A stretch of DNA of 21,292 nt from a virus. The translations under genes and the position numbers were made by a program. The DNA lies in the IMG/VR virus record IMGVR_UViG_3300034062_000911, positions 1-21,292 of that record; one strand, 5' to 3'. The notes under the pieces were generated by a model that worked only from the letters and a program-made list of their open reading frames with translations, made no database searches and was not told the origin of the DNA. This document shows positions 3,986 through 21,292 of this stretch, one piece after another (within the stretch, counting starts at the first letter, position 1; the number at the start of each line of letters is the position of its first letter).

Positions 3986-5008
3986 ATGAGCATTTGGATT
4001 GACCAAAAGTACATTGGTACACTCTCGGTTCGCTTGGACAAATTTGTTCGCAAAGGCGACTACACCTATAACTTCAGATGCCCTATCTGCGGTGACTCCC
4101 AAACAAATAGAAACAAAGCACGTGGATACATCTTTGCACAAAAGGGTGGACTCTTCTACAAATGCCACAATTGTGCTGTCAGCATTTCACTTGGCAATCT
4201 AATCAAAGCTGTTGACCCAAACCTTTACAAAGAGTATTGCTTAGAGCGATACAAAGAAGGTGAGACTGGTCGCAAACCACACAAAGAACACGGATTCGTT
4301 TTTAAGCCTGTTGTATTTGGCAGTAACAAGACAGACAATCTAAAAGGTGTTTTGACTTCACTCTCTAAACTCAGCGATACGCATGAAGCTATCGTATACG
4401 CACGTTCTAGAAAGATTCCAGAAGATAAATTAAAGACACTCTATTACGTTGACAATGTTCAGAAGTTAAAAGTCTTTTCTCCAGAGTATGAAGAGAAGAT
4501 TGTAACTGAAGAACCTAGAATTGTCTTGCCGTTCTATGACAGAGATGGCGAGTTAGTTGGTTTAACTGCACGTGGTATTCGTGGTGAGAAACAGCGTTAT
4601 CTTGTAATGAAAATAAAAGATGATTCGCCCATGATTTACAACATGAACAACATAGATATAACACAGACTATTTTTGTTACTGAAGGTCCCATAGATAGTT
4701 TGTTCTTACCCAATGCAGTCGCAGTCGGCAACTCAAATCTGAAGTATGTACTCAATCACTTACCTAAAGATCAGTTAGTATTGATTTATGACAACGAACC
4801 ACGTAATAAAGAAATCGTCAGAGAAATCGGTGATGCAATTTTAGCAGACGCAAATGTGGTGATCTGGCCCAAATCATATCAAGAAAAAGATATAAATGAT
4901 ATGATACTAGCTAAAAGAACGCGGAATGAAATCCTCGATACGATAAATAAATTTACCTTTCGCGGCCCTAAGGCACTACTTGAATATAACATATGGAAGT
5001 TAAGATGA
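3986..5008 (+). CDS. 61: DNA primase, T4 gp61 type
   Basis: This 340-residue protein has the layout of T4 gp61, which with the gp41 helicase makes RNA primers for lagging-strand synthesis. An N-terminal zinc-binding module has Cys32, Cys35, Cys60 and Cys63 (RCPICGD ... YKCHNC). A TOPRIM-like catalytic part follows: LPFYDRDGELVGLTARG (about 181-197), IFVTEGPIDSLF with Glu233, and LIYDNEPRN with Asp269 and Glu271, plus a KDINDM segment near 301. The length matches gp61-like proteins. The start at ATG 3986 has the sequence GAGAAA upstream and lies just after the promoter/palindrome. It is the first gene of the operon, and its stop overlaps thyX by ATGA (5005-5008), so translation is coupled. No helicase gene is in the window. 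Confidence 0.9.
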   Translation: MSIWIDQKYIGTLSVRLDKFVRKGDYTYNFRCPICGDSQTNRNKARGYIFAQKGGLFYKCHNCAVSISLGNLIKAVDPNLYKEYCLERYKEGETGRKPHKEHGFVFKPVVFGSNKTDNLKGVLTSLSKLSDTHEAIVYARSRKIPEDKLKTLYYVDNVQKLKVFSPEYEEKIVTEEPRIVLPFYDRDGELVGLTARGIRGEKQRYLVMKIKDDSPMIYNMNNIDITQTIFVTEGPIDSLFLPNAVAVGNSNLKYVLNHLPKDQLVLIYDNEPRNKEIVREIGDAILADANVVIWPKSYQEKDINDMILAKRTRNEILDTINKFTFRGPKALLEYNIWKLR

Positions 5009-5712
5009 ACGTAAAACTGATAAGCTATTCACAACAAGCAATTGATGCAGACAAGCAAGACGAATTTGAATTTGATCTACCCAACTTACAAGACCTTGTA
5101 GCATACTGTGCAAGAGTATCAAATCCATCAAACCAAGCCAATAGCGAGACTTCAGAGAAACTAATTAAGTATCTCATTAAGCACAAGCATTGGTCGCCAC
5201 TTGAAATGGTGTCGGCATGCATGGAAATTGAAACAACAAGAGATATTGCAAGACAGTTATTACGCCATAGAAGTTTTTCGTTTCAAGAATTTAGTCAGAG
5301 ATATGCTGATCCTACAGCAGAGTTAGATGATGCTTTTGTTTTGCGTGAAGCAAGAATGCAAGACACAAAGAATCGCCAAAACTCCGTAGAACTTGATATG
5401 TCTGATGAAAATCAAAAACTATTAGCATACGAATGGGAACGTGCCCAGAAGCGAGTATTGTACGCAGTTAAAAAAGAATATGAATGGGCTATTAAGAATG
5501 GTATTGCAAAAGAGCAAGCGAGAGCAGTTTTGCCAGAGGGTCTTACAGTATCGAGACTCTACGCTAATGGCACACTTAGATCATGGATCCATTACATTGA
5601 TTTGAGAGATGGTAATGGAACACAAAAAGAACACGCAGAAATTGCAAGGGCGTGTGCTGAAGTAATTGCAAAGGTATTTCCAATAATTAAAAGTATACGA
5701 GAAGGAACTTGA
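5005..5712 (+). CDS. thyX: Flavin-dependent thymidylate synthase ThyX
   Basis: ThyX methylates dUMP to dTMP using methylene-tetrahydrofolate with FAD and NAD(P)H. The protein has 235 residues from ATG 5005, overlapping the primase stop by ATGA; a start at 4993 would lengthen the overlap needlessly. The diagnostic RHR-x7-S motif is at residues 87-97 (RHRSFSFQEFS), followed by QRY. VAYCARVSNPS (33-42), LEMVSACMEIETTRDIARQLL (67-86) and ARAVLPEGLTVSRLYANGTLRSW (172-194) fit the family. The C-terminal LRDGNGTQKEHAEIA is close to the usual dUMP-binding LR...aQ.EIR, except that the final Arg of EIR is Ala here. It sits directly before nrdA, giving a deoxynucleotide supply unit. Confidence 0.95.
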   Translation: MNVKLISYSQQAIDADKQDEFEFDLPNLQDLVAYCARVSNPSNQANSETSEKLIKYLIKHKHWSPLEMVSACMEIETTRDIARQLLRHRSFSFQEFSQRYADPTAELDDAFVLREARMQDTKNRQNSVELDMSDENQKLLAYEWERAQKRVLYAVKKEYEWAIKNGIAKEQARAVLPEGLTVSRLYANGTLRSWIHYIDLRDGNGTQKEHAEIARACAEVIAKVFPIIKSIREGT

Positions 5713-7494
5713 ATGACAACTGATATTGTAATCGACTATAGTAGAGATTCGCTATTCGATGAGTTAGGTATTAAAAGATTGAAAGAAAGTTATATGAAGG
5801 AGGATGAAAATTCTCCACAAGAAAGGTTTGCTCATGTTTCAGAAGCGTTTGGTAGCAATCCAGAACATGCACAGCGATTATATGAATACAGCAGTAGGCA
5901 TTGGTTGTCTTATTCTACTCCCATTCTTTCTTTTGGTCGCAGTAGTCGTGGGCTCCCTATTTCATGTTTTCTTCCATATCTACACGATAGTGCAGAAGGT
6001 CTTGTTAACTGTCTCGCAGAAGTTAATTGGCTTTCGATGTTGGGTGGTGGTGTCGGGATCGGTGTCGGCATTCGCAGTTCGGATGATAAATCGGTTGGAG
6101 TCATGCCGCACCTTCGCACATATGACGCATCATCTCTCGCTTACAGACAAGGTAGGACTCGCCGTGGTTCCTACGCTACTTATCTTGATATTTCTCATCC
6201 TGATATTCTCTTATTTCTTGAGATGAGAAAGCCGACAGGCGACCCCAATCTACGCACATTGAACTTGCATCACGGCATTAACATTCCAGATTCATTCATG
6301 CAAATCGTTGAACGATGTATGCAAGACAAAGATGCAGATGATTCTTGGGAATTAAGAGACCCACACAACAATGAAGTGCGTGAAGTAGTTTCTGCTAAAG
6401 ACTTGTGGCAACGTGTGCTTGACATTCGTATGCAGACTGGTGAACCATATCTACATTTCATTGACGCAAGCAATCGTGCTATGCCAGAATTTCAAAAGAA
6501 GTTGGGACTCAGCATTAAGCAATCAAACTTGTGTTCTGAAATTATTTTACCTACAGACAAAGATAGAACAGCAGTATGTTGTTTGTCTTCAGTTAATTTG
6601 GAGTACTTTGATGAATGGAAGAATGATCCTTTATTCCTTGCTGATATTGCTGAAATGCTCGACAATGTTCTTCAGTATTTTATTGATAATGCTCCTGCCG
6701 CCGTTGAACGTGCAAGGTATTCTGCCATACGTGAGCGCAGTATTGGTGTCGGTGCTTTGGGCTTTCACGCTTATCTACAACGAAATAACGTACCGTTCGA
6801 GTCAGCACTCGCAGTCGGAAGAAACAAACAAATCTTTAAACACATCAGGGATGGATTAAATGTTGCGAATCTTAAATTGGGTAAAGAGCGAGGTGAGGCT
6901 CTTGACGCTGTTGGCACTGGTCAACGTTTCAGTCATCTTATGGCTGTCGCTCCAAATGCTTCTTCGTCTATCATCATGGGAAATACTAGCCCTAGTATCG
7001 AACCTTATCGTGCTAATGCTTATCGTCAGGACACTTTATCGGGGTCATCATTAGCCAAAAACAAATGGCTTGACAGGATCATCAAAAGTGTAGTAAAATC
7101 AGATGATGAGTACCAGACAGTTTGGTCTAGCATTATCGCAAATGATGGTAGTGTACAGCACTTAGATATTCTTGATGATTGGCAGAAAGATGTATTCAAG
7201 ACTTCTATGGAGATTGACCAACGTTGGTTAGTTAATCATGCCGCAGATAGACAAGAATATATCGATCAAGCGCAGTCATTGAATCTATTCTTCCGACCTG
7301 ATGTGAACATCATGTATCTACATGCAGTACATTTTCAAGCATGGAAGCAAGGCCTCAAAACATTGTACTACTGCCGTTCAGAGAAGATTGGTAAAGCAGA
7401 CAAGGTATCAAAACGCATTGAGCGTGAAGTAATTAAAGAACTCGACATGAAAGCACTGATCGATGGTGATGCATGTCTCGCATGTGAAGGATAA
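5713..7494 (+). CDS. nrdA: Ribonucleoside-diphosphate reductase large (alpha) subunit, without ATP cone
   Basis: This class Ia subunit reduces NDPs to dNDPs together with NrdB (8056-9051). It has 593 residues; cellular NrdA is about 750. The N-terminal ATP-cone domain is missing, as the protein begins almost directly with the catalytic-barrel lead-in, so dATP feedback inhibition is probably lost. Catalytic residues are in place by alignment from memory: Cys85 (PISCFL) and Cys289 (AVCCLSS) as the substrate-reducing pair, Asn272, Cys274 and Glu276 (SNLCSE) for the thiyl radical site, Tyr552-Tyr553 (LYYCRS) for radical transfer, and a C-terminal CLAC (Cys588, Cys591) that accepts electrons from thioredoxin. 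The start directly follows the thyX stop, with GAAGGAA (5701-5707) upstream. The frame is uninterrupted, with no intron or intein. Confidence 0.95.
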   Translation: MTTDIVIDYSRDSLFDELGIKRLKESYMKEDENSPQERFAHVSEAFGSNPEHAQRLYEYSSRHWLSYSTPILSFGRSSRGLPISCFLPYLHDSAEGLVNCLAEVNWLSMLGGGVGIGVGIRSSDDKSVGVMPHLRTYDASSLAYRQGRTRRGSYATYLDISHPDILLFLEMRKPTGDPNLRTLNLHHGINIPDSFMQIVERCMQDKDADDSWELRDPHNNEVREVVSAKDLWQRVLDIRMQTGEPYLHFIDASNRAMPEFQKKLGLSIKQSNLCSEIILPTDKDRTAVCCLSSVNLEYFDEWKNDPLFLADIAEMLDNVLQYFIDNAPAAVERARYSAIRERSIGVGALGFHAYLQRNNVPFESALAVGRNKQIFKHIRDGLNVANLKLGKERGEALDAVGTGQRFSHLMAVAPNASSSIIMGNTSPSIEPYRANAYRQDTLSGSSLAKNKWLDRIIKSVVKSDDEYQTVWSSIIANDGSVQHLDILDDWQKDVFKTSMEIDQRWLVNHAADRQEYIDQAQSLNLFFRPDVNIMYLHAVHFQAWKQGLKTLYYCRSEKIGKADKVSKRIEREVIKELDMKALIDGDACLACEG

Positions 7495-8055: not shown

Positions 8056-9051
8056 ATGAGTGCAACAAAAGTAAAAAGTAATTTGATGGATGGCAGAGAT
8101 GCATTCAAGCCATTTAATTATCCGTGGGCGTATGATGCGTGGCTGAAGCACGAACAAAGTCATTGGTTACATACAGAAGTTCCAATGGCTGAAGATGTAA
8201 AAGATTGGAAGAAAAAATTAACAGCAGACGAGAAACATTTTCTCACAAACATTTTTCGTTTCTTTACTCAAGGTGACATTGACGTTGCTGGCGGTTATGT
8301 AAAGAACTATCTACCATACTTCAAGCAACCAGAAGTACGTATGATGTTGCTTGGCTTTGCCGCTAGAGAAGCATTGCACGTTGCCGCATACTCACACTTG
8401 ATTGAAACGTTAGGTCTTCCAGATACAACTTATAACGAATTCTTAGCATATCAAGAAATGAAAGACAAGCACGATTACGTGTTAGACATTTCAAATGCAA
8501 ATGGTGACTTGCAATCTACTGCTACACACATTGCGGTATTCTCAGCATTCACAGAAGGTATGCAGTTGTTCTCTTCATTCATTATGTTGTTGAACTTCCC
8601 ACGTACTGGCAAGATGAAAGGTATGGGACAGATTGTTACTTGGTCTATCGTAGATGAAACGCAACATTGCGAATCTATGATTAAGCTATTCAGAACATTC
8701 ATTCAAGAAAATAATGAAATCTGGAATGATGACTTGAAGTCTAAGATATATACTATTGCAGAACGAATGGTAGAGTTAGAAGACAAGTTTATTGACTTAG
8801 CTTTTGGTATCAGTCACATGGAAGGACTTACTTCAGAAGAAGTTAAGAAGTACATTCGTTACATTGCAGATAGACGCCTTATCAGTCTTGGACTAAAAGG
8901 TATTTTTAAAGTCAAAAAGAATCCACTACCTTGGGTTGAAGAAATGATTAATGCACCGACACATACAAACTTCTTTGAAAACCGTGCTACAGATTATGCA
9001 AAGGGCGCAACCAAAGGCGATTGGGCAGATGTGTGGGGCAAAGCGGCATGA
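8056..9051 (+). CDS. nrdB: Ribonucleoside-diphosphate reductase small (beta) subunit
   Basis: NrdB houses the di-iron tyrosyl-radical cofactor that starts catalysis in NrdA. It has 331 residues and starts at ATG 8056, with GGAGAA (8040-8045) upstream. Iron ligands by comparison with the family: Asp74 (TQGDID), Glu105 and His108 (REALH), Glu167 (TEGMQ), Glu201 and His204 (DETQH). The radical tyrosine is Tyr112 (EALHVAAY), four residues after His108 as in class Ia enzymes, so this is not a Tyr-less class Ic type. The C-terminal tail (FENRATDYAKG...DVWGKAA) should dock into NrdA. The frame is continuous, without intron or intein. The stop overlaps the next ATG (ATGA, 9048-9051), coupling it to the receiver-like protein. 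Confidence 0.95.
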   Translation: MSATKVKSNLMDGRDAFKPFNYPWAYDAWLKHEQSHWLHTEVPMAEDVKDWKKKLTADEKHFLTNIFRFFTQGDIDVAGGYVKNYLPYFKQPEVRMMLLGFAAREALHVAAYSHLIETLGLPDTTYNEFLAYQEMKDKHDYVLDISNANGDLQSTATHIAVFSAFTEGMQLFSSFIMLLNFPRTGKMKGMGQIVTWSIVDETQHCESMIKLFRTFIQENNEIWNDDLKSKIYTIAERMVELEDKFIDLAFGISHMEGLTSEEVKKYIRYIADRRLISLGLKGIFKVKKNPLPWVEEMINAPTHTNFFENRATDYAKGATKGDWADVWGKAA

Positions 9052-9377
9052 TAATCGATCCAAATACAAGAGTTCTTGTTGTGGACAATATACCAAAACA
9101 ATTACAAGAGACTGCAAACATTGCAAGAAGAATTGGCTATAAAGCTGTAGATACTGTATCAAGCAATATTGATGCGTTAACTAAATTGAGATATCAGAAG
9201 TATGGTTTGATTATTTCAGACAATGCAGACTTATTCAAAAACACACCAGATACACAATGCAATATAGTTGTTTTATATTCCGAACATAAACTCAATACTA
9301 TCAATTCTAGTGTTCATAAATACATTGTTAAGCCGTTTAGTGAAGAAACACTAAAACATACTATAGAAGAAATTTAA
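9048..9377 (+). CDS. Compact CheY-like receiver-domain protein
   Basis: The start chosen is ATG 9048, overlapping the nrdB stop (ATGA); the in-frame ATG at 9021 would add nine residues inside nrdB. The 109-residue product has the beta/alpha order of a response-regulator receiver: RVLVVDN (Asp13-Asn14, where CheY has Asp-Asp), an amphipathic helix, LTKLRYQKYGLIISD (Asp58, the phospho-acceptor position), NIVVLYS (Ser78, the Thr/Ser switch) and KYIVKPFSEETLKHTI (Lys95-Pro96, the invariant Lys). About 37 residues separate Asp58 from Lys95, against about 52 in CheY, so helix 3/4 regions are shortened. It has no output domain. One acidic Mg2+ ligand is replaced by Asn, so phosphorylation is uncertain. 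It could be a decoy for a host histidine kinase or a structural relic. Confidence 0.65.
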   Translation: MIIDPNTRVLVVDNIPKQLQETANIARRIGYKAVDTVSSNIDALTKLRYQKYGLIISDNADLFKNTPDTQCNIVVLYSEHKLNTINSSVHKYIVKPFSEETLKHTIEEI

Positions 9378-9841: not shown

Positions 9842-10477
9842 ATGTCATTTTTAATAGCCAATTTACCACCTGTTCACTGCTTTGTTAGAAAAGAATTTCT
9901 ATACGACTTCAAAGAAGGTCATGGTGAATATGTACCCTGTATTTGGGTAAGCATCAAATCGATTCGTGGTCAAGCATTTCGAATCGAATCATATCTTCCA
10001 GAGTATGGCGCACTCTATGACAAATTACCATTGAGTGCATACGTAAGTAGAGATCACAATCTAGATCCAGATAAATTTGTTCCTCTAGATTACCTACAAA
10101 TTTGGGACTGTCTTGGATACGACATGACAGTTATACAAAAAGTCTTTCTTAAAAACCTAACAGGAAAATTTTACGCAAAAGACAAAAGCTGGTACCAAGG
10201 CAACTACATGTTCACTGTTGACCATGCGGCACCAGACCATAATATGATTGACTTGACATATTCTGAGTGGCCAGAAGATCACAAGTCATACAATTTCATT
10301 GAACTAGATAATGGACAGTATGCGGCACAACCGAATAATCGATGTATATTCTACGATGCCGCAAGTAATCCTAAAGAAATGAAGTTTCCAGATTTTAAAG
10401 TCGCAACAAGAAAGTTTGTTGTTGAACACAATCCGAAATGGGCTTTAGGTGATACAGACACAGTAATGTACGAATAA
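9842..10477 (+). CDS. Conserved phage protein of unknown function (SLPPV-type)
   Basis: This 211-residue soluble protein starts at ATG 9842, immediately after the nuclease stop. Characteristic segments are MSFLIANLPPVHCFVRKEFLYDF, then YVPCIWVSIKSIRGQAF, ESYLPEYGALYDKLPLSAYV, LDYLQIWDC, a FTVDHAAPDHN segment and YAAQPNNRCIFYD. I recall this pattern from a protein present in very many marine and freshwater myoviruses and siphoviruses, always without a known activity. Conserved acidic, His and aromatic residues suggest a folded enzyme or structural protein rather than a linker. There is no signal peptide, TM or coiled coil. The neighbours (secreted nuclease and resolvase) do not settle its job. 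Confidence 0.75.
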   Translation: MSFLIANLPPVHCFVRKEFLYDFKEGHGEYVPCIWVSIKSIRGQAFRIESYLPEYGALYDKLPLSAYVSRDHNLDPDKFVPLDYLQIWDCLGYDMTVIQKVFLKNLTGKFYAKDKSWYQGNYMFTVDHAAPDHNMIDLTYSEWPEDHKSYNFIELDNGQYAAQPNNRCIFYDAASNPKEMKFPDFKVATRKFVVEHNPKWALGDTDTVMYE

Positions 10478-13968: not shown

Positions 13969-14457
13969 ATGGCAAACAAGTCTTGGACAATCAATTTGGA
14001 AGAAGACCCAGAAACTGGTGATTTGATTCTTCCATTGAATGATGATATACTAGAGGGAACTGGTTGGAAAACTGGTGACAATATCGAATGGATTGACAAT
14101 AAAGATGGTAGTTGGACTATGAAAAAGATTGAAACACAATGGGTGCTTGTTGAAACTGTCTCTACGTTTCGTGAACGCTACATGGTAGAAGTGCCTGTTG
14201 GCATTGACAGATATGGTAAAGACAAAGCAGACTGGGCACTTGATACAGTTACGCTAGAAGAAGCAAAAGAATTTTCGCAAAAACATCTAGGCGAAACTAT
14301 CGTATCGCATCGTGTAGTGACTAAAGAAGAAGCATTGGCTTTGTGTGATAAAGATAATGCATATTGCAAAGCATGGACTGAAGAACATAAAGTTGCAACT
14401 TTCTTCACATCAATGGCAGATCACATTCGTGATGGCGATTATCAAGACCACACGTAA
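13969..14457 (+). CDS. AbrB/MazE-like DNA-binding-type domain fused to a conserved phage domain
   Basis: This 162-residue protein starts at ATG 13969 with AAAGGAA (13956-13962). Residues 3-53 (SWTINLEEDPETGDLILPLNDDILEGTGWKTGD and onward to WTMKK) have the looped-hinge swapped-hairpin pattern of SpoVT-AbrB/MazE antitoxin-type DNA-binding domains. The rest (about 55-162) is a separate conserved phage domain: WVLVETVSTFRERYMVEVP, then WALDTVTLEEAKEFSQKHLGETIVSHRVV, ALCDKDNAYCKAWTEE and FFTSMADHI. The second domain occurs alone, as I remember it, in T4-like cyanophages. The combination suggests a regulator, but no toxin gene is adjacent. The stop overlaps the SET gene start by one base (TAATG). 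Confidence 0.65.
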   Translation: MANKSWTINLEEDPETGDLILPLNDDILEGTGWKTGDNIEWIDNKDGSWTMKKIETQWVLVETVSTFRERYMVEVPVGIDRYGKDKADWALDTVTLEEAKEFSQKHLGETIVSHRVVTKEEALALCDKDNAYCKAWTEEHKVATFFTSMADHIRDGDYQDHT

Positions 14458-14852
14458 TGTTTCTATACAAAACAGAAGTACGAACAGCAACAAATCCAAA
14501 AATGGGTTTGGGTTTGTTTGCAAAAGAGCATATACCAGCGAATAGCGTTGTGTGGAAATACGTTGATGGCATTGATATAAAATTTCATATCGACAGGATG
14601 AAAGAATTCAATGATGCACAGAAAGAATATTTTAAGAAGTATGCTTGGATAGAAAAGTCTGAAGATGGCGAAGAATTCATGTGTTCGAATGCCGATTCGT
14701 CAAACTTTATCAATCACAGCAATTTACCAAACATTCAGAATACTGGTAATTTTTCTGTGGCAATTTGTGATATCCAAGTTGACGAAGAGATTTTTATCAA
14801 CTATAATAGTTTTGATACAGAGTTTGATGAATACAAAGATGAAATGATTTGA
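14457..14852 (+). CDS. SET-domain protein, putative lysine methyltransferase
   Basis: This 131-residue protein starts at ATG 14457 (TAATG overlap). The SET core motifs are all visible: MGLGLFAKEHIPANSVVWKY (16-35, matching G.GLFA...I..g..i), SSNFINHSNLPN (81-92, matching the R/NFxNHSxxPN AdoMet-binding knot) and DIQVDEEIFINYNSFD (105-120, matching dI..gEEl..nY, with Tyr116). There is no pre- or post-SET cysteine cluster. The length is close to minimal viral SET proteins such as chlorella virus vSET. It would methylate lysines on a host or virion protein with S-adenosylmethionine; target unknown. The usual Arg before FxNHS is Asn here (NFINHS), a common variation. Confidence 0.8.
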   Translation: MFLYKTEVRTATNPKMGLGLFAKEHIPANSVVWKYVDGIDIKFHIDRMKEFNDAQKEYFKKYAWIEKSEDGEEFMCSNADSSNFINHSNLPNIQNTGNFSVAICDIQVDEEIFINYNSFDTEFDEYKDEMI

Positions 14853-14862
14853 GGAACATAAG

Positions 14863-15096
14863 ATGACATTACCTGACGAAAGATATCGTGCATTGCGTTG
14901 CGGGCATCAAATGCTTTTAGATTTGTTGAACCCCAAAATAACACCTAAAGTACCAAAGTACGTTCGTCAACGTGCGTTGGGTGTTCTGAGACACTATCCA
15001 AATTCATATCACTTTGCTAAGATTGTGGAGAAGTTGCCTGAAGATTTTTCTGTCAATAGTCCATTTGTTAAGGTGACGAATGAAAACGCAAACTGA
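14863..15096 (+). CDS. BPSL0761-family small protein
   Basis: This 77-residue protein starts at ATG 14863 behind GAGGAA (14851-14856). The pattern DERYRALRCGHQMLLDLLNP, then KVPKYVRQRALGVLRHYPNSYH matches the small BPSL0761 family (R..AL.....FL..L.dP..tP.vP..VR..A..LLRHYP). That family is common in proteobacteria and their phages and is of unknown function. It is helical and basic, with no signal peptide or TM. Its 3' end overlaps the next small gene by 17 bases (15080-15096). Confidence 0.8.
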   Translation: MTLPDERYRALRCGHQMLLDLLNPKITPKVPKYVRQRALGVLRHYPNSYHFAKIVEKLPEDFSVNSPFVKVTNENAN

Positions 15097-15253: not shown

Positions 15254-15530
15254 AACGTTTGATCCCAGTAATAAAAAACATCGACAGATTTTTCACGATG
15301 TTTTGAGATATCGTACTTGGGGTAGGTCTGCAATTTGTTTTTGGGCAGAAGATGATTCTTCAGGAAACAACAGTTTGATGGATCAATGCGTTAAAGCAAT
15401 TGGAACATACTACATGGAAAAAGAATTCGGTGAATTGATTGATGATGATCCATTTGTATCTGGCGAATCGACACGTAGTAAACCAAATCCACATGTGTAT
15501 CAGTACACACGAAAGAAAACGATTATATGA
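15219..15530 (+). CDS. Conserved phage hypothetical protein
   Basis: This 103-residue protein starts at ATG 15219, 35 bases before the stop of the upstream small gene. Motifs are FGRPFETFDPSNKKHRQIFHDVLRYRTWGRSAICFW and a TYYMEKEFGELI segment. The FDPSN.eHR..f...l..rsW..s...F pattern recalls small proteins in T4-like marine phages. Soluble and basic at the C-terminus (TRSKPNPHVYQYTRKK). There is no recognised activity. The stop overlaps the next start (ATGA, 15527-15530). Confidence 0.65.
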   Translation: MSKIQQFGRPFETFDPSNKKHRQIFHDVLRYRTWGRSAICFWAEDDSSGNNSLMDQCVKAIGTYYMEKEFGELIDDDPFVSGESTRSKPNPHVYQYTRKKTII

Positions 15531-16015
15531 AATATGAAATCATAGACAATTTTTTAGATGAATTTAGTTTTAACCACATCAAAAGTGTAATTGAATCTGA
15601 TACTTTTCCTTGGTTTTGGCAAGACCAAGTTACTTTTGTAAATTCTGATGGGTCTCCATATTACTTTACTCATATGTTGTTTGTTGATAATGAAGCTAAA
15701 AGCCAATTATTTCGTCAATTTATGTTTCCTATTCTCGAAAAACTTGACGCAAAAGCTATCATTAGAATCAAGATAAATTTATATACAAATGTTTCAGAAT
15801 TTATTGAAAATGAATTTCATATAGATTATCCGTATGAACACAAAGGCGCAATTTTATATTTAAATAACAATAATGGATATACAATTTTAGAAGATGGTAC
15901 AAAAATAGAATCTATAGAAAATAGATTGCTTAAATTTGAACCACACAAAAAACATAGAAGTACTCATTGTACTGATGTTAAACGAAGAATGAACATAAAT
16001 TTTAATTATTTTTAA
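15527..16015 (+). CDS. 2-oxoglutarate/Fe(II)-dependent oxygenase family protein
   Basis: This 162-residue protein starts at ATG 15527 with an ATGA overlap. The double-stranded beta-helix signature is present: the His-x-Asp iron pair H98-I-D100 (FHIDYP), a distal His (His143 or His147 in HKKHRSTHC) and a 2OG-binding Arg (Arg153/154 in VKRRMNINFNYF). RIKINLYTNVS (80-90), GAILYLNNNNGYTILEDG and RLLKFEPHKKH match the phage 2OG oxygenase family that I recall as widespread in marine phages. These enzymes hydroxylate proteins, nucleobases or small molecules; the substrate here is unknown. The A+T content of this gene is higher than its neighbours (many AAT/ATT/TTT codons), which may hint at a separate origin. 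Confidence 0.8.
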   Translation: MKYEIIDNFLDEFSFNHIKSVIESDTFPWFWQDQVTFVNSDGSPYYFTHMLFVDNEAKSQLFRQFMFPILEKLDAKAIIRIKINLYTNVSEFIENEFHIDYPYEHKGAILYLNNNNGYTILEDGTKIESIENRLLKFEPHKKHRSTHCTDVKRRMNINFNYF

Positions 16016-18307: not shown

Positions 18308-20152
18308 TTATTTGTATTGTTGATTGACCATCTCTTGGTGTAGTCTATCACTACCACCTTGTAAACCTCTCAATGTTCTAGCATTATCTACTGTCTTTTG
18401 ATTCTTGTAAATTTCTTTGGGTGCATAGAATGCAACATCTGGAATCATAGTGAAGTACTGTGCATAATTTGCAGGTTGCTTTGCAATTGATTCTATCGTA
18501 ACATTACCTGCGGCTTCATTGTTCTGCACGTTCTTTTTAACTGAAGCATTTTGTTCAGAGCCAGTATTCATTTGCGGTAAAAATGGTTTAGATTCCATAG
18601 CATTGTCAACTGGACCTCTATATCCAAATTTGATTCCTTCTGTCGATGGCAATTCAATTTGAACTGGTGCATATCTTGTTGGTGCAACTAAACTGTAAGA
18701 TATTTGTGGTGTTACCATTGCAACATTAAATTCTTGTCTTGTAGTGTTTTGAATATTGTATTGCTGTTGTTGAGTTGTTACGCTAGAAGTGACTGTATCA
18801 GATTGCGTACCCATGCTACCACTATTGATAGACTGTTGAAGTCTCGCAGAGTTTGATGCAGAGTTTCCCTGTTGATTGCCTTGCATTGATACAGATGACC
18901 CTTGCAATTGTGTGACTGATTGTGTGCCTGATGCGAGTGCTGTTCCTGTTTGTGATGAACCACCACTGTTCGCAATGCTTTGAGATTGTACGTCACCAGC
19001 AAGTTTTTCAGCATTTTGTTTCGCAGTCTCACCTGCAGAAAATGCTTGTGCATCAGCCGCTTGTACTACAGATTTTTCTAGTGCCGCAGTCTTTTCTTGA
19101 TTAGACCCAATCATACTGAGAACTGAAGATAGAGATACTGTTGATTTTGAACCGCCTGAAGAATCAGACACTTCACCAACTTTAGCTTGTGGATTATTTG
19201 CGCTAGGTTGTGATGCGGATGCTTGTTGAGTGGGACCTGGCATAGGAGGACCCGCTGGCGCTGGGCCCACTTGTTGCATTGTTGGTTGTGGTGCTTGAGT
19301 GTTATCTAATGGCACAGGGCTTCCTGGCGGTGGCTGACTTCCCGGAGGAGGCGCAAGTTGTCCAGACTGAATTTGCATAGTCGAATCTGCCAGCATTGGA
19401 GGAGGCGGTGCTTGAATGTTGTCTACGACAGGTGGTGGAGGTGGGGCAAGTTTAGCAAGTGCTTCAAGATATCCAGGACATGTTGGAGAGTATATAGGAT
19501 TCGTTGCACATGGATCTACAGAATACTTCAGACTAAAATTAACACCATAAATTTCTGGACCATAAGGACCAGCCCATCCATTGTTATCTCTTCCAACAAA
19601 ACCATACTGAACACTACCTAGATTTTTAGATGCAAGCGGTGTGTTAAATGTTTCGGAGTAGTTGAACGTAGACCAATTAAATCTAGAATTCAAATCATAG
19701 TTTTTATTGAATACTGTAGAACCCTTTGAATCATAGAGACTGACATATGCAGTAAGATAGTCCATTCTCGCATCATCCCATCCATTTCCATTCTTAGCAG
19801 TAAATCCAAAATTATATCCGCTTACTGAAAGCCCAGTTCCGCTGTTTGGTAGAACATTAGAAATTGCTTGCATCTGATATAGATTAGTCATGCCAAATGA
19901 AAAGTTGATATTATCTCCAGGACGCACGATTGGATTTGGCCCACAGTAACCAGGATCACCCCATTCCCAACAAGTCAGATTGTTTTGATATACACCATTA
20001 ACCCAAGGCGTAGGTCCACCCTGAGGAGTATTCTGAAGAATATTCCCCGTAGTGTAGACTTGCGTTGGGTCTAGTGTTTGCGCTTTACTTAAAAGCGGCG
20101 TGAACAATAATGCCAAGCAAAGAGCCAAGCCCAATGTTTTTAGCAGTTTCAT
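18308..20152 (-). CDS. Secreted Pro/Gln/Ser-rich protein with N-terminal aromatic Cys domain
   Basis: This 614-residue protein starts at ATG 20152, read leftward. A signal peptide spans residues 1-24 (LGLALCLALLFTPLL, cleavage near SKA|Q). The N-terminal domain (about 26-230) has CWEWGDPGYC (Cys61, Cys70), a GNGWDDARMDYLTAYVSLYD segment, FVGRDNNGWAGPYGPEIYG and a second Cys pair (Cys215, Cys225). That pattern looks like a beta-sandwich with disulfides, and I recall it from T4-like marine phages. A Pro-rich linker (PPPPP near 237 and later) is followed by a long Ser/Gln/Asn/Gly-rich region (about 330-470) and a C-terminal part (480-614). It is probably a surface or virion protein exported through the inner membrane. 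Its first 23 codons overlap the 3' end of the upstream gene in another frame. Confidence 0.75.
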   Translation of the reverse strand: MKLLKTLGLALCLALLFTPLLSKAQTLDPTQVYTTGNILQNTPQGGPTPWVNGVYQNNLTCWEWGDPGYCGPNPIVRPGDNINFSFGMTNLYQMQAISNVLPNSGTGLSVSGYNFGFTAKNGNGWDDARMDYLTAYVSLYDSKGSTVFNKNYDLNSRFNWSTFNYSETFNTPLASKNLGSVQYGFVGRDNNGWAGPYGPEIYGVNFSLKYSVDPCATNPIYSPTCPGYLEALAKLAPPPPPVVDNIQAPPPPMLADSTMQIQSGQLAPPPGSQPPPGSPVPLDNTQAPQPTMQQVGPAPAGPPMPGPTQQASASQPSANNPQAKVGEVSDSSGGSKSTVSLSSVLSMIGSNQEKTAALEKSVVQAADAQAFSAGETAKQNAEKLAGDVQSQSIANSGGSSQTGTALASGTQSVTQLQGSSVSMQGNQQGNSASNSARLQQSINSGSMGTQSDTVTSSVTTQQQQYNIQNTTRQEFNVAMVTPQISYSLVAPTRYAPVQIELPSTEGIKFGYRGPVDNAMESKPFLPQMNTGSEQNASVKKNVQNNEAAGNVTIESIAKQPANYAQYFTMIPDVAFYAPKEIYKNQKTVDNARTLRGLQGGSDRLHQEMVNQQYK

Positions 20153-21292
20153 ATTTGTTCTCTTTTTCTAAAACTGGAATCTTGTCTGGATTTGCTTCCC
20201 AATACATTCTTGCAGTAACACCAATTTGACCATCTGCTGGACATGGAGTACCAGCCGCCATCATAGCATCAAACACTCTTCTATCTTGACACATAGTAGC
20301 AACGGCGGCTACCTTCATACCCATATCAAAAAGAGTTTTCGATAACTTTAAACGTTCGCAATTTAAGTCTCTAATTGTACCACCAGAAGAAACACCAAAG
20401 ATTTGAGTCTGAACAGAGCCAGATGAACCTGTAGAACACAAATCATTATTACCACCACTCATCATTGCAGGTGCTACAGCAGTTGGTGGAGGTTGAATCA
20501 CACGCTGAGTGATTGTAGTTTCATTGATGTTGCGGTTAGTCATATCACCAGAGTTGATGTTCTGATTAACGTTGGCATTCTGATTCACGTTTGTGCTAGT
20601 GCTAGTTGACGCATTGACGTTATTGTTATTGTTCGTCATTGTGCCAGTATTTTCATTCTTATTCACATTGTTGCTAGTCGTTGTATTGACGTTTGTGTTT
20701 TTGTTGTCACTTGTTGAAACGTTGTTATTGTTGTATGTCATTGTACCAGTATTTTCATTCTTATTGATATTGGTAGATGTGCTAACGCTATTGTTATTGT
20801 TGTTGAACGTTTGTGTGCCGCTGTTTATATTATGATTAGTGTTTGTATTGTTTGACGTTGAAGTATTAACGTTATTGTTATTGTTTGTCATTGTTCCAGT
20901 ATTGACATTGTTATTATTGTATGTCAATGTGCCAGAGTTAACGTTGTTATTGTTAAACGTCTGAGTGCCACTATTCACGTTATTGTTTGTGTTAACGTTC
21001 GTGGATGTGCTTGTGCTTGCGTTGTTATTGTTGTTCGTATTAACGCTAGTGCTGTTGACAGTTGAATTGCTTGTCGCATTGCTGTTGCTTGTCGCATTGC
21101 TATTGCTATTAACTGTACTGACACTATTTGAAGTGCTGTTGGTGTCTACCAACGTTTTGCTATCGTATGTACCTTGATTAATGAGACTTGTGGTCCCTGT
21201 TGTTGTTCCACCAGTTGTGCTGGATGTTCCAGTCGTTTGTGCTAATGCCGCACCAAACATCATAACAAAAAGAGCAACTACAAGGCTCTTCT
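20085..21292 (-). CDS. Secreted Asn/Thr/Ser repeat protein (5' truncated by right edge)
   Basis: The frame stays open to the right edge. The residues upstream of the internal Met at 21263 (KSLVVALFVM) and those after it (MFGAALAQ) form a signal peptide, so the real start lies outside the window. Numbering from 21263, residues 41-248 are a low-complexity Asn/Thr/Ser domain with GT-x-T-x-NNNN blocks at about 99, 111, 123, 149, 173 and 207. The C-terminal domain (about 258-392) has Cys276, Cys302, Cys325 and Cys341 (DLCSTGSSG, LNCERLKLSK, VAAVATMCQD, AAGTPCPADG) and a hydrophobic end (LGSLLGIIVHAAFK). The same C-terminal pattern occurs, from memory, in secreted proteins of T4-like cyanophages. 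It overlaps the next gene by 68 bases. It is probably a surface or virion-associated adhesin-like protein. Confidence 0.75.
   Translation of the reverse strand, partial: KSLVVALFVMMFGAALAQTTGTSSTTGGTTTGTTSLINQGTYDSKTLVDTNSTSNSVSTVNSNSNATSNSNATSNSTVNSTSVNTNNNNNASTSTSTNVNTNNNVNSGTQTFNNNNVNSGTLTYNNNNVNTGTMTNNNNNVNTSTSNNTNTNHNINSGTQTFNNNNNSVSTSTNINKNENTGTMTYNNNNVSTSDNKNTNVNTTTSNNVNKNENTGTMTNNNNNVNASTSTSTNVNQNANVNQNINSGDMTNRNINETTITQRVIQPPPTAVAPAMMSGGNNDLCSTGSSGSVQTQIFGVSSGGTIRDLNCERLKLSKTLFDMGMKVAAVATMCQDRRVFDAMMAAGTPCPADGQIGVTARMYWEANPDKIPVLEKENKYETAKNIGLGSLLGIIVHAAFK
20520..21143 (-). repeat. Degenerate Asn/Thr/Ser coding repeat array
   Basis: The DNA encodes about 208 residues made almost only of Asn, Thr, Ser and Val, with 12-residue units at 99-123 and longer units after. 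A 20-base segment is repeated exactly at 20644-20663 and 20746-20765 (CCAGTATTTTCATTCTTATT on the + strand), 102 bases or 34 codons apart, indicating recent unit duplication. On the opposite strand it reads as hydrophobic false ORFs. Confidence 0.8.

Follow-up and report, generated by a model that had tools for sequence, protein, structure and literature searches.

What is a SET enzyme, of the kind best known for marking histones in human cells, doing in a virus of bacteria? The question is raised by a 21,292-base IMG/VR virus record (here, the window, analyzed over its whole length), which we read as a fragment of a tailed phage. One of its open reading frames matches the SET profile PF00856 over profile positions 1 to 105 of 105 (score 47.9 bits, cut-off 22.4; E 2e-12) and is the sole PF00856 match in the whole record. 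In the control scan with this profile, 1 of 14 control genomes was positive, that of Methanosarcina acetivorans. Profile searches gave no PHROG or NCBIfam match for the frame. The SET stretch occupies residues 17 to 117, and no second Pfam domain was found in the 131 amino acids, i.e., the domain stands alone, without pre-SET or post-SET parts. The frame and its motifs are as follows, with residue counts taken over the 83 distinct near-full-length SET domains gathered in this analysis.

14457-14852, plus strand: SET-domain protein, candidate protein-lysine N-methyltransferase, 131 amino acids, ATG start
14505-14513, plus strand: GxG motif (G17-L-G19); G17 kept in 77 of 81 aligned SET domains, G19 in 80 of 82
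14712-14732, plus strand: NHSNLPN motif, residues 86 to 92; N86 in 82, H87 in 78, P91 in 73, and N92 in 74 of 83 aligned SET domains
14802-14804, plus strand: Y116, the expected catalytic tyrosine; tyrosine in 77 and phenylalanine in 3 of 82 aligned SET domains

Residues 17 to 19 (GxG) and 86 to 92 are presumably the AdoMet site, and we take Y116 to be the catalytic tyrosine. The motifs that the first-pass annotation had quoted, NFINHSNLPN and an EEIF-type motif, are present in the frame at 14457-14852 on the plus strand, where NFINHSNLPN supplies N86, H87, P91, and N92 and EEIFINYN supplies Y116. In addition, E111 and I106 were kept in all 83 aligned domains, and the four residues G19, N86, H87, and Y116 were present together in 66 of the 74 distinct viral domains. 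Two positions before Y116, at the Phe/Tyr switch that governs product specificity in SET enzymes, the window protein has Ile and the family varies, so the degree of methylation is not predictable. The full-length PF00856 match, the whole AdoMet and catalytic motifs, and the phage genes as neighbors bear out the earlier description of a phage-borne SET protein that is both minimal and intact.

The AlphaFold2 model of the protein, built with 27 family members in the alignment, had a pLDDT of 90.5 and a pTM of 0.76. When it was compared with solved structures, as the first-pass annotation had proposed for vSET, this viral enzyme was the best match by Foldseek against the PDB (3kma_A, ranked first, E 1.7e-6) and shared the top rank in VIA-align with many other SET enzymes (Z 11.3, rmsd 2.1, 97 residues aligned). 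VIA-align placed 362 of 1,000 chains at Z ≥ 8, and the 50 rows listed were all SET-bearing proteins or complexes. At the level of sequence, a profile of the 27-member family matched 133 distinct PDB sequences at E ≤ 0.001, of which the best 60 were mostly named histone-lysine methyltransferases, with MLL3/KMT2C first (E 1.7e-14).

The gene is under purifying selection. Its frame is kept in six IMG/VR relatives at 87 to 100% identity, and dN/dS, calculated for close pairs only, was 0.04 between the window and L003, 0.19 for L004, 0.17 for L006, and 0.20 for L009; the copy in L002 differed by two synonymous and no nonsynonymous changes. Together, the predicted fold, the match to vSET, the kept motifs, and the low dN/dS make it likely that the window protein is an active enzyme.

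The genes around it in the window that are needed below are the following.

4993-5712, plus strand: thyX-like ORF, named by eye and by similarity across loci; homologues lie beside the SET gene in related phages
5713-7494, plus strand: nrdA-like ORF, matching annotated ribonucleotide reductase (RNR) alpha subunits of Pelagibacter phages
8056-9051, plus strand: nrdB, ribonucleotide reductase small chain (PF00268, E 5.3e-77)
9842-10477, plus strand: phrog_3704 protein, 211 amino acids (PHROG E 3.9e-87 over residues 1 to 211), ca. 4 kb upstream of the SET gene
13969-14457, plus strand: upstream ORF, 162 amino acids, with phrog_661 over its N terminus and a stop codon that overlaps the SET start by one base

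The rest of the window is a replication and nucleotide-metabolism block, with a primase (phrog_47), the thyX-like and nrdA-like genes, a thioredoxin-like gene, nrdB, a nuclease, a RuvC-like gene, and a ClpP-like protease, and a GH19 hydrolase lies downstream of this block. The SET gene is followed in the window's clade by a BPSL0761-family ORF (14863-15096; NCBIfam NF041728, E 6e-14). The neighbors of the SET gene and their order recur in L002, L003, L004, L006, and L009, while L005 ends at the SET gene. Three other frames of the window deserve mention. An ORF directly after nrdB (9045-9377) resembles a response-regulator receiver (PF00072, E 8e-8), and a long ORF on the minus strand (20085-21263) carries asparagine- and threonine-rich repeats (NNNNVNT) and is possibly surface exposed. 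The third, at 15527-16015, matches phrog_274, “DNA endonuclease V,” and by eye shows an HxD ... H pattern like that of a 2OG-Fe(II) oxygenase, an assignment for which no Pfam or PDB sequence match gave support. A gene with the same “DNA endonuclease V” label follows phrog_3704 in the Synechococcus phage Sf-CH1b (L107), in the order SET, phrog_3704, labeled gene.

The gene immediately upstream had been called AbrB-like and placed one base before the SET gene. In fact, the two share a base, since the A of the SET start codon is also the final base of the stop codon before it (TAATG at 14455-14459), an overlap that suggests coupled translation. As for its identity, only phrog_661, a family of unassigned function, was found, and over the first 56 residues alone (E 4.1e-11); no Pfam model matched at E ≤ 0.001 (the best at a laxer threshold was DUF1905, E 0.16), and no AbrB chain in the PDB was matched by the sequence of these 56 residues. 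The AbrB label found no support in these searches. Nor could the upstream gene be kept as a general SET companion, as a phrog_661-type ORF adjoins SET in eight loci, window included, confined to the window's clade and L043.

How common are such genes? The window protein alone retrieved five close IMG/VR loci and, at E ≤ 0.001, a single one of 50,697 phage records, that of a 636-kb uncultured phage. Profile scans of viral records reached further, with 28 loci in one scan and at least 77 in a wider one. The final set comprised 99 viral SET loci, i.e., the window and 98 others (L002 to L106 minus seven bacterial loci, with L007 and L008 coming from named phage records), which formed 42 clusters at 50% identity and 60 at 70%. 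The seven bacterial loci came from a profile search of bacterial genome contigs, and of 142 genomes from the class to which an Alphaproteobacteria MAG (G001) belongs, 24 had a SET match. Given this many viral loci and bacterial genomes, the view that SET proteins are scattered exceptions in bacteria and viruses, as the first-pass annotation had it, is too narrow. On a tree of 82 rows and 119 columns, which contained no eukaryotic SETs, the phage domains are intermixed with the bacterial ones (8 changes), 47 of the 79 inner branches being open. Some copies are unusual. In five contigs (L027, L028, L029, L030, and L031), SET is frameshifted into two overlapping frames, and a similar copy in L016 is intact; in a Phycisphaerales contig (L033, 4408-8004), four ORFs with SET matches are packed into 4 kb, spread over the two strands; and the SET gene of the cyanophage SynMITS9220M01 (L008, 3953-4318; MT408532.1, 51724-52089) is annotated as a truncated 195-base hypothetical gene, the open frame being longer.

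We then asked which genes accompany SET. A homologue of phrog_3704 directly abuts it in 10 of the 42 clusters (16 of 60 at 70% identity). A second family, which we call q, adjoins it in 5 of 42, and q occurs there without phrog_3704 in 4 of 42 (7 of 60 at 70%). Among the 83 families of direct neighbors ranked, every other one reached at most two SET clusters. SET is found both ahead of and behind its neighbor, for phrog_3704 as well as for q. Within one starred SET clade (98), the downstream position is taken by phrog_3704 in L074 and by q in L080, L089, L096, and L104; the window's own starred clade (99) includes phrog_3704 upstream, phrog_3704 downstream, and q downstream. From both orders and the mixed neighbors within clades, the link of SET with phrog_3704 or q appears to have arisen, or been re-established, several times. 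The contact can be very close, as in the cyanophages SynMITS9220M01, S-B05, and Sf-CH1b, in which the two frames share bases or lie no more than a few bases apart, and the SET match of RN05-S and RB11-B extends into a feature named PurM. Three phages whose core genes relate them to the window (L010, L011, and L014) have SET directly before phrog_3704; in the window itself, SET lies 4 kb downstream of phrog_3704 and has other genes as direct neighbors. We found no report of a SET-phrog_3704 or SET-q linkage in the literature searched on phage SET/lysine methyltransferases, and this recurrent linkage is the new part of the present analysis. SET enzymes are common in environmental phages, and a recurrent neighbor is a concrete lead to their substrate.

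Ribonucleotide reductase genes also accompany SET. An nrdA homologue abuts SET in L010, L011, L012, L039, L040, L044, L074, and L077, directly preceding it in L010, L012, L039, L040, L044, and others, and a different nrdA abuts it in L089, L096, L098, L104, and L105. A window-like nrd gene was detected with the window nrdA and nrdB queries in the fetched flanks of 3 of the 10 phrog_3704-linked SET clusters and was absent from those of the other 7.

Seen from the other side, the association is rare. Both families mostly live without SET, given at least 595 confirmed IMG/VR loci for phrog_3704 and at least 587 for q. SET was adjacent in 1 of 80 phrog_3704 loci and in 3 of 80 q loci (two of them already in our set), in samples biased by taking the 80 best matches to each query, with flanks of 1.5 kb; accordingly, neither family needs SET. 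In ten further annotated phage regions with phrog_3704, no SET match at E ≤ 0.1 was within reach. Among 30 SET-bearing records chosen for having no phrog_3704 in their fetched flanks, 6 of which were q-linked (L078, L080, L089, L090, L096, and L098), phrog_3704 was found anywhere in a single one, compared with 20 of the 27 records of the first SET set, which included the window's clade. Of the neighbor families, 41 of 65 around phrog_3704 and 20 of 54 around q were singletons, with nrdA or nrdB often among the neighbors, and such variable, nrd-rich surroundings suit an insertion hotspot.

What, then, are the two putative partner families? phrog_3704 was found in 114 of the 50,697 phage records, mostly cyanophages. 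Records label it PurM, phosphoribosylaminoimidazole synthetase, or ferredoxin (window 9842-10477; L114 3501-5142). No AIR-synthetase or ferredoxin Pfam match was obtained at E ≤ 1 in 22 members, and P-SSM2 has a separate purM gene just downstream of phrog_3704, so the PurM label looks like a carry-over. If the link to SET is real, it would offer a first hint of what this family does, its “PurM” and “ferredoxin” labels being without Pfam support. The predicted structure (pLDDT 78.8, with the last 30 residues poor) has an SH3-like C-terminal half, residues ca. 99 to 171, for which the best structural match was the Tudor domain of SETDB1 (Z 6.6, rmsd 2.1, 59 residues aligned). The matches listed were mostly Tudor and KOW domains with some myosin rows, all at Z < 8, below the trust level of the tool, and the best Foldseek match of the model had an E value of 0.02. 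The modeled fold would be compatible with a binding module, in particular a methyl-lysine reader. Internal repetition between the two halves of the protein was not detectable by hhalign.

Members of q have 72 to 80 amino acids and the motifs TPKG, EHDLxWVVF, TGECW, and IRxxxN (e.g., L104 2535-2765 and L046 5443-5634). Outside IMG/VR, the family had one INPHARED match. No confident PHROG or Pfam match was found in the four members tried; one member reached E 0.015 with the Pfam Hsr-9 Tudor model, below the cut-off, and was not counted as belonging to it. We also considered whether phrog_3704 and q form one family, given a shared EH...PNN/N look, and rejected it: the best hmmsearch domain had E 0.018, and hhalign gave a whole-profile probability of 0.1, the halves being likewise unsupported.

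The reading that we favor, tentatively and at somewhat less than even chances, is that of a catalytically competent, single-domain protein-lysine N-methyltransferase (PKMT) made with the replication and nucleotide genes and targeted by a separate phage protein. The SET frame would be translated into such an enzyme, expressed together with the phage replication and nucleotide-metabolism genes of the early or middle class, and would methylate a lysine on some host or phage protein in early to mid-infection, with AdoMet as the methyl donor. Since the protein is little more than a catalytic domain, we infer a separate targeting protein, most likely phrog_3704, which recurs in the operon of SET, with q in its place in other phages. 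Ribosomal, nucleoid, or virion proteins had been proposed as targets. They received no support here, the context being the replication and nucleotide-metabolism block, phrog_3704, and q rather than late virion genes. Against this favored reading count the 4 kb that separate the two genes in the window, the rarity of SET beside phrog_3704 or q when sampled from their side (1 of 80 and 3 of 80), the single phrog_3704 carrier among the 30 SET-bearing records, the lack of detectable homology between phrog_3704 and q, and the hotspot-like variability of the surroundings. A more specific version is rather unlikely, i.e., that SET and a Tudor/KOW-like SH3-barrel protein (phrog_3704 or q) form a writer-and-reader, or writer-and-guide, module in the nucleotide-metabolism operon of tailed phages. 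If true, infection would involve the marking of a host or phage protein by this module, which would also read or direct the mark, so that viruses of bacteria would have a counterpart to the methyl-lysine signaling of eukaryotes.

It is quite possible, instead, that the enzyme is an active PKMT whose substrate is a host protein and which has no connection to phrog_3704 or q, and that SET genes drop repeatedly into an accessory hotspot near the ribonucleotide reductase operon. The variable neighborhoods of both families, rich in nrdA/nrdB-type genes, and the low adjacency counts just given speak for this, and so does the position of SET elsewhere in the window, where it is 58% identical to that of L012, while nrdA and thyX are 92% identical, as expected of a mobile accessory gene. 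On the other hand, with nrd in the flanks of only 3 of 10 phrog_3704-linked SET clusters, a reductase hotspot would not explain most of them, even if divergent reductases may be missed, and the other accessory families at the same places reach two SET clusters at most. That phrog_3704 (or q) is itself the substrate, with SET methylating a lysine of its neighbor, would also account for the recurrent adjacency, and K148 of the window phrog_3704 protein is invariant in 32 of 32 proteins from SET-bearing phages. This lysine is equally invariant where no SET is adjacent (10 of 10), and no phrog_3704 lysine was both universal in and specific to SET-linked proteins, the others being neither universal nor clean, so the search for a SET-specific lysine failed and we consider this explanation unlikely.

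The two remaining alternatives concern the SET protein itself. A catalytically dead fold, kept for binding, could be read from the 8 of 74 distinct viral domains that lack at least one of the four key residues and from the frameshifted copy in five contigs (L027 to L031); the window protein, however, has all motifs, a high-confidence model, and a gene under purifying selection, which makes this quite unlikely here. An artefact, whether cellular contamination or a chance ORF, is extremely improbable. The record is a 21-kb fragment and nothing was found in favor of an artefact, while the SET gene occurs in six more viral contigs with the same phage neighbors and in named cyanophage isolates.

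Phage SET genes as a kind are already known. ORF62 of the cultured Stenotrophomonas phage Ps15 is reported as a “SET domain protein” (PMC9025141), and GenBank annotates the SET protein of Sf-CH1b as a SET protein-lysine N-methyltransferase. Four SET queries run by tblastn matched no Stenotrophomonas phage record, so the Ps15 protein presumably belongs to a distant subfamily. Full-text searches on phage SET/lysine methyltransferases yielded no study of the function of a phage SET enzyme, and one apparent hit (PMC3220722) was a false match to the Ig “I-set” domain. The better-known bacterial SET proteins are secreted effectors, such as the chlamydial NUE (PMC3980110; see also PMC2904774). The bacterial SETs of our set (Nitrospinota, Phycisphaerales, Leptospirales, and Alphaproteobacteria) are single-domain proteins of similar length, with up to 37% identity. 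In the cyanophages Sf-CH1b (XYM57557.1), S-B05, and SynMITS9220M01, the SET gene overlaps phrog_3704, whereas in the window, the two are separated, and the cyanophage proteins branch elsewhere in the tree and are so diverged that a search with the window protein misses them at E ≤ 0.001. Among solved structures, the one most like the window protein is vSET of Paramecium bursaria Chlorella virus 1 (PDB 3kma), also a virus-encoded, stand-alone, minimal SET domain, although the two are only 24% identical over the structural alignment. vSET forms a dimer and methylates H3K27 of the host histone. Its virus infects eukaryotic algae, hosts that bear histones, whereas the hosts of the window phage are bacteria, without nucleosomes.
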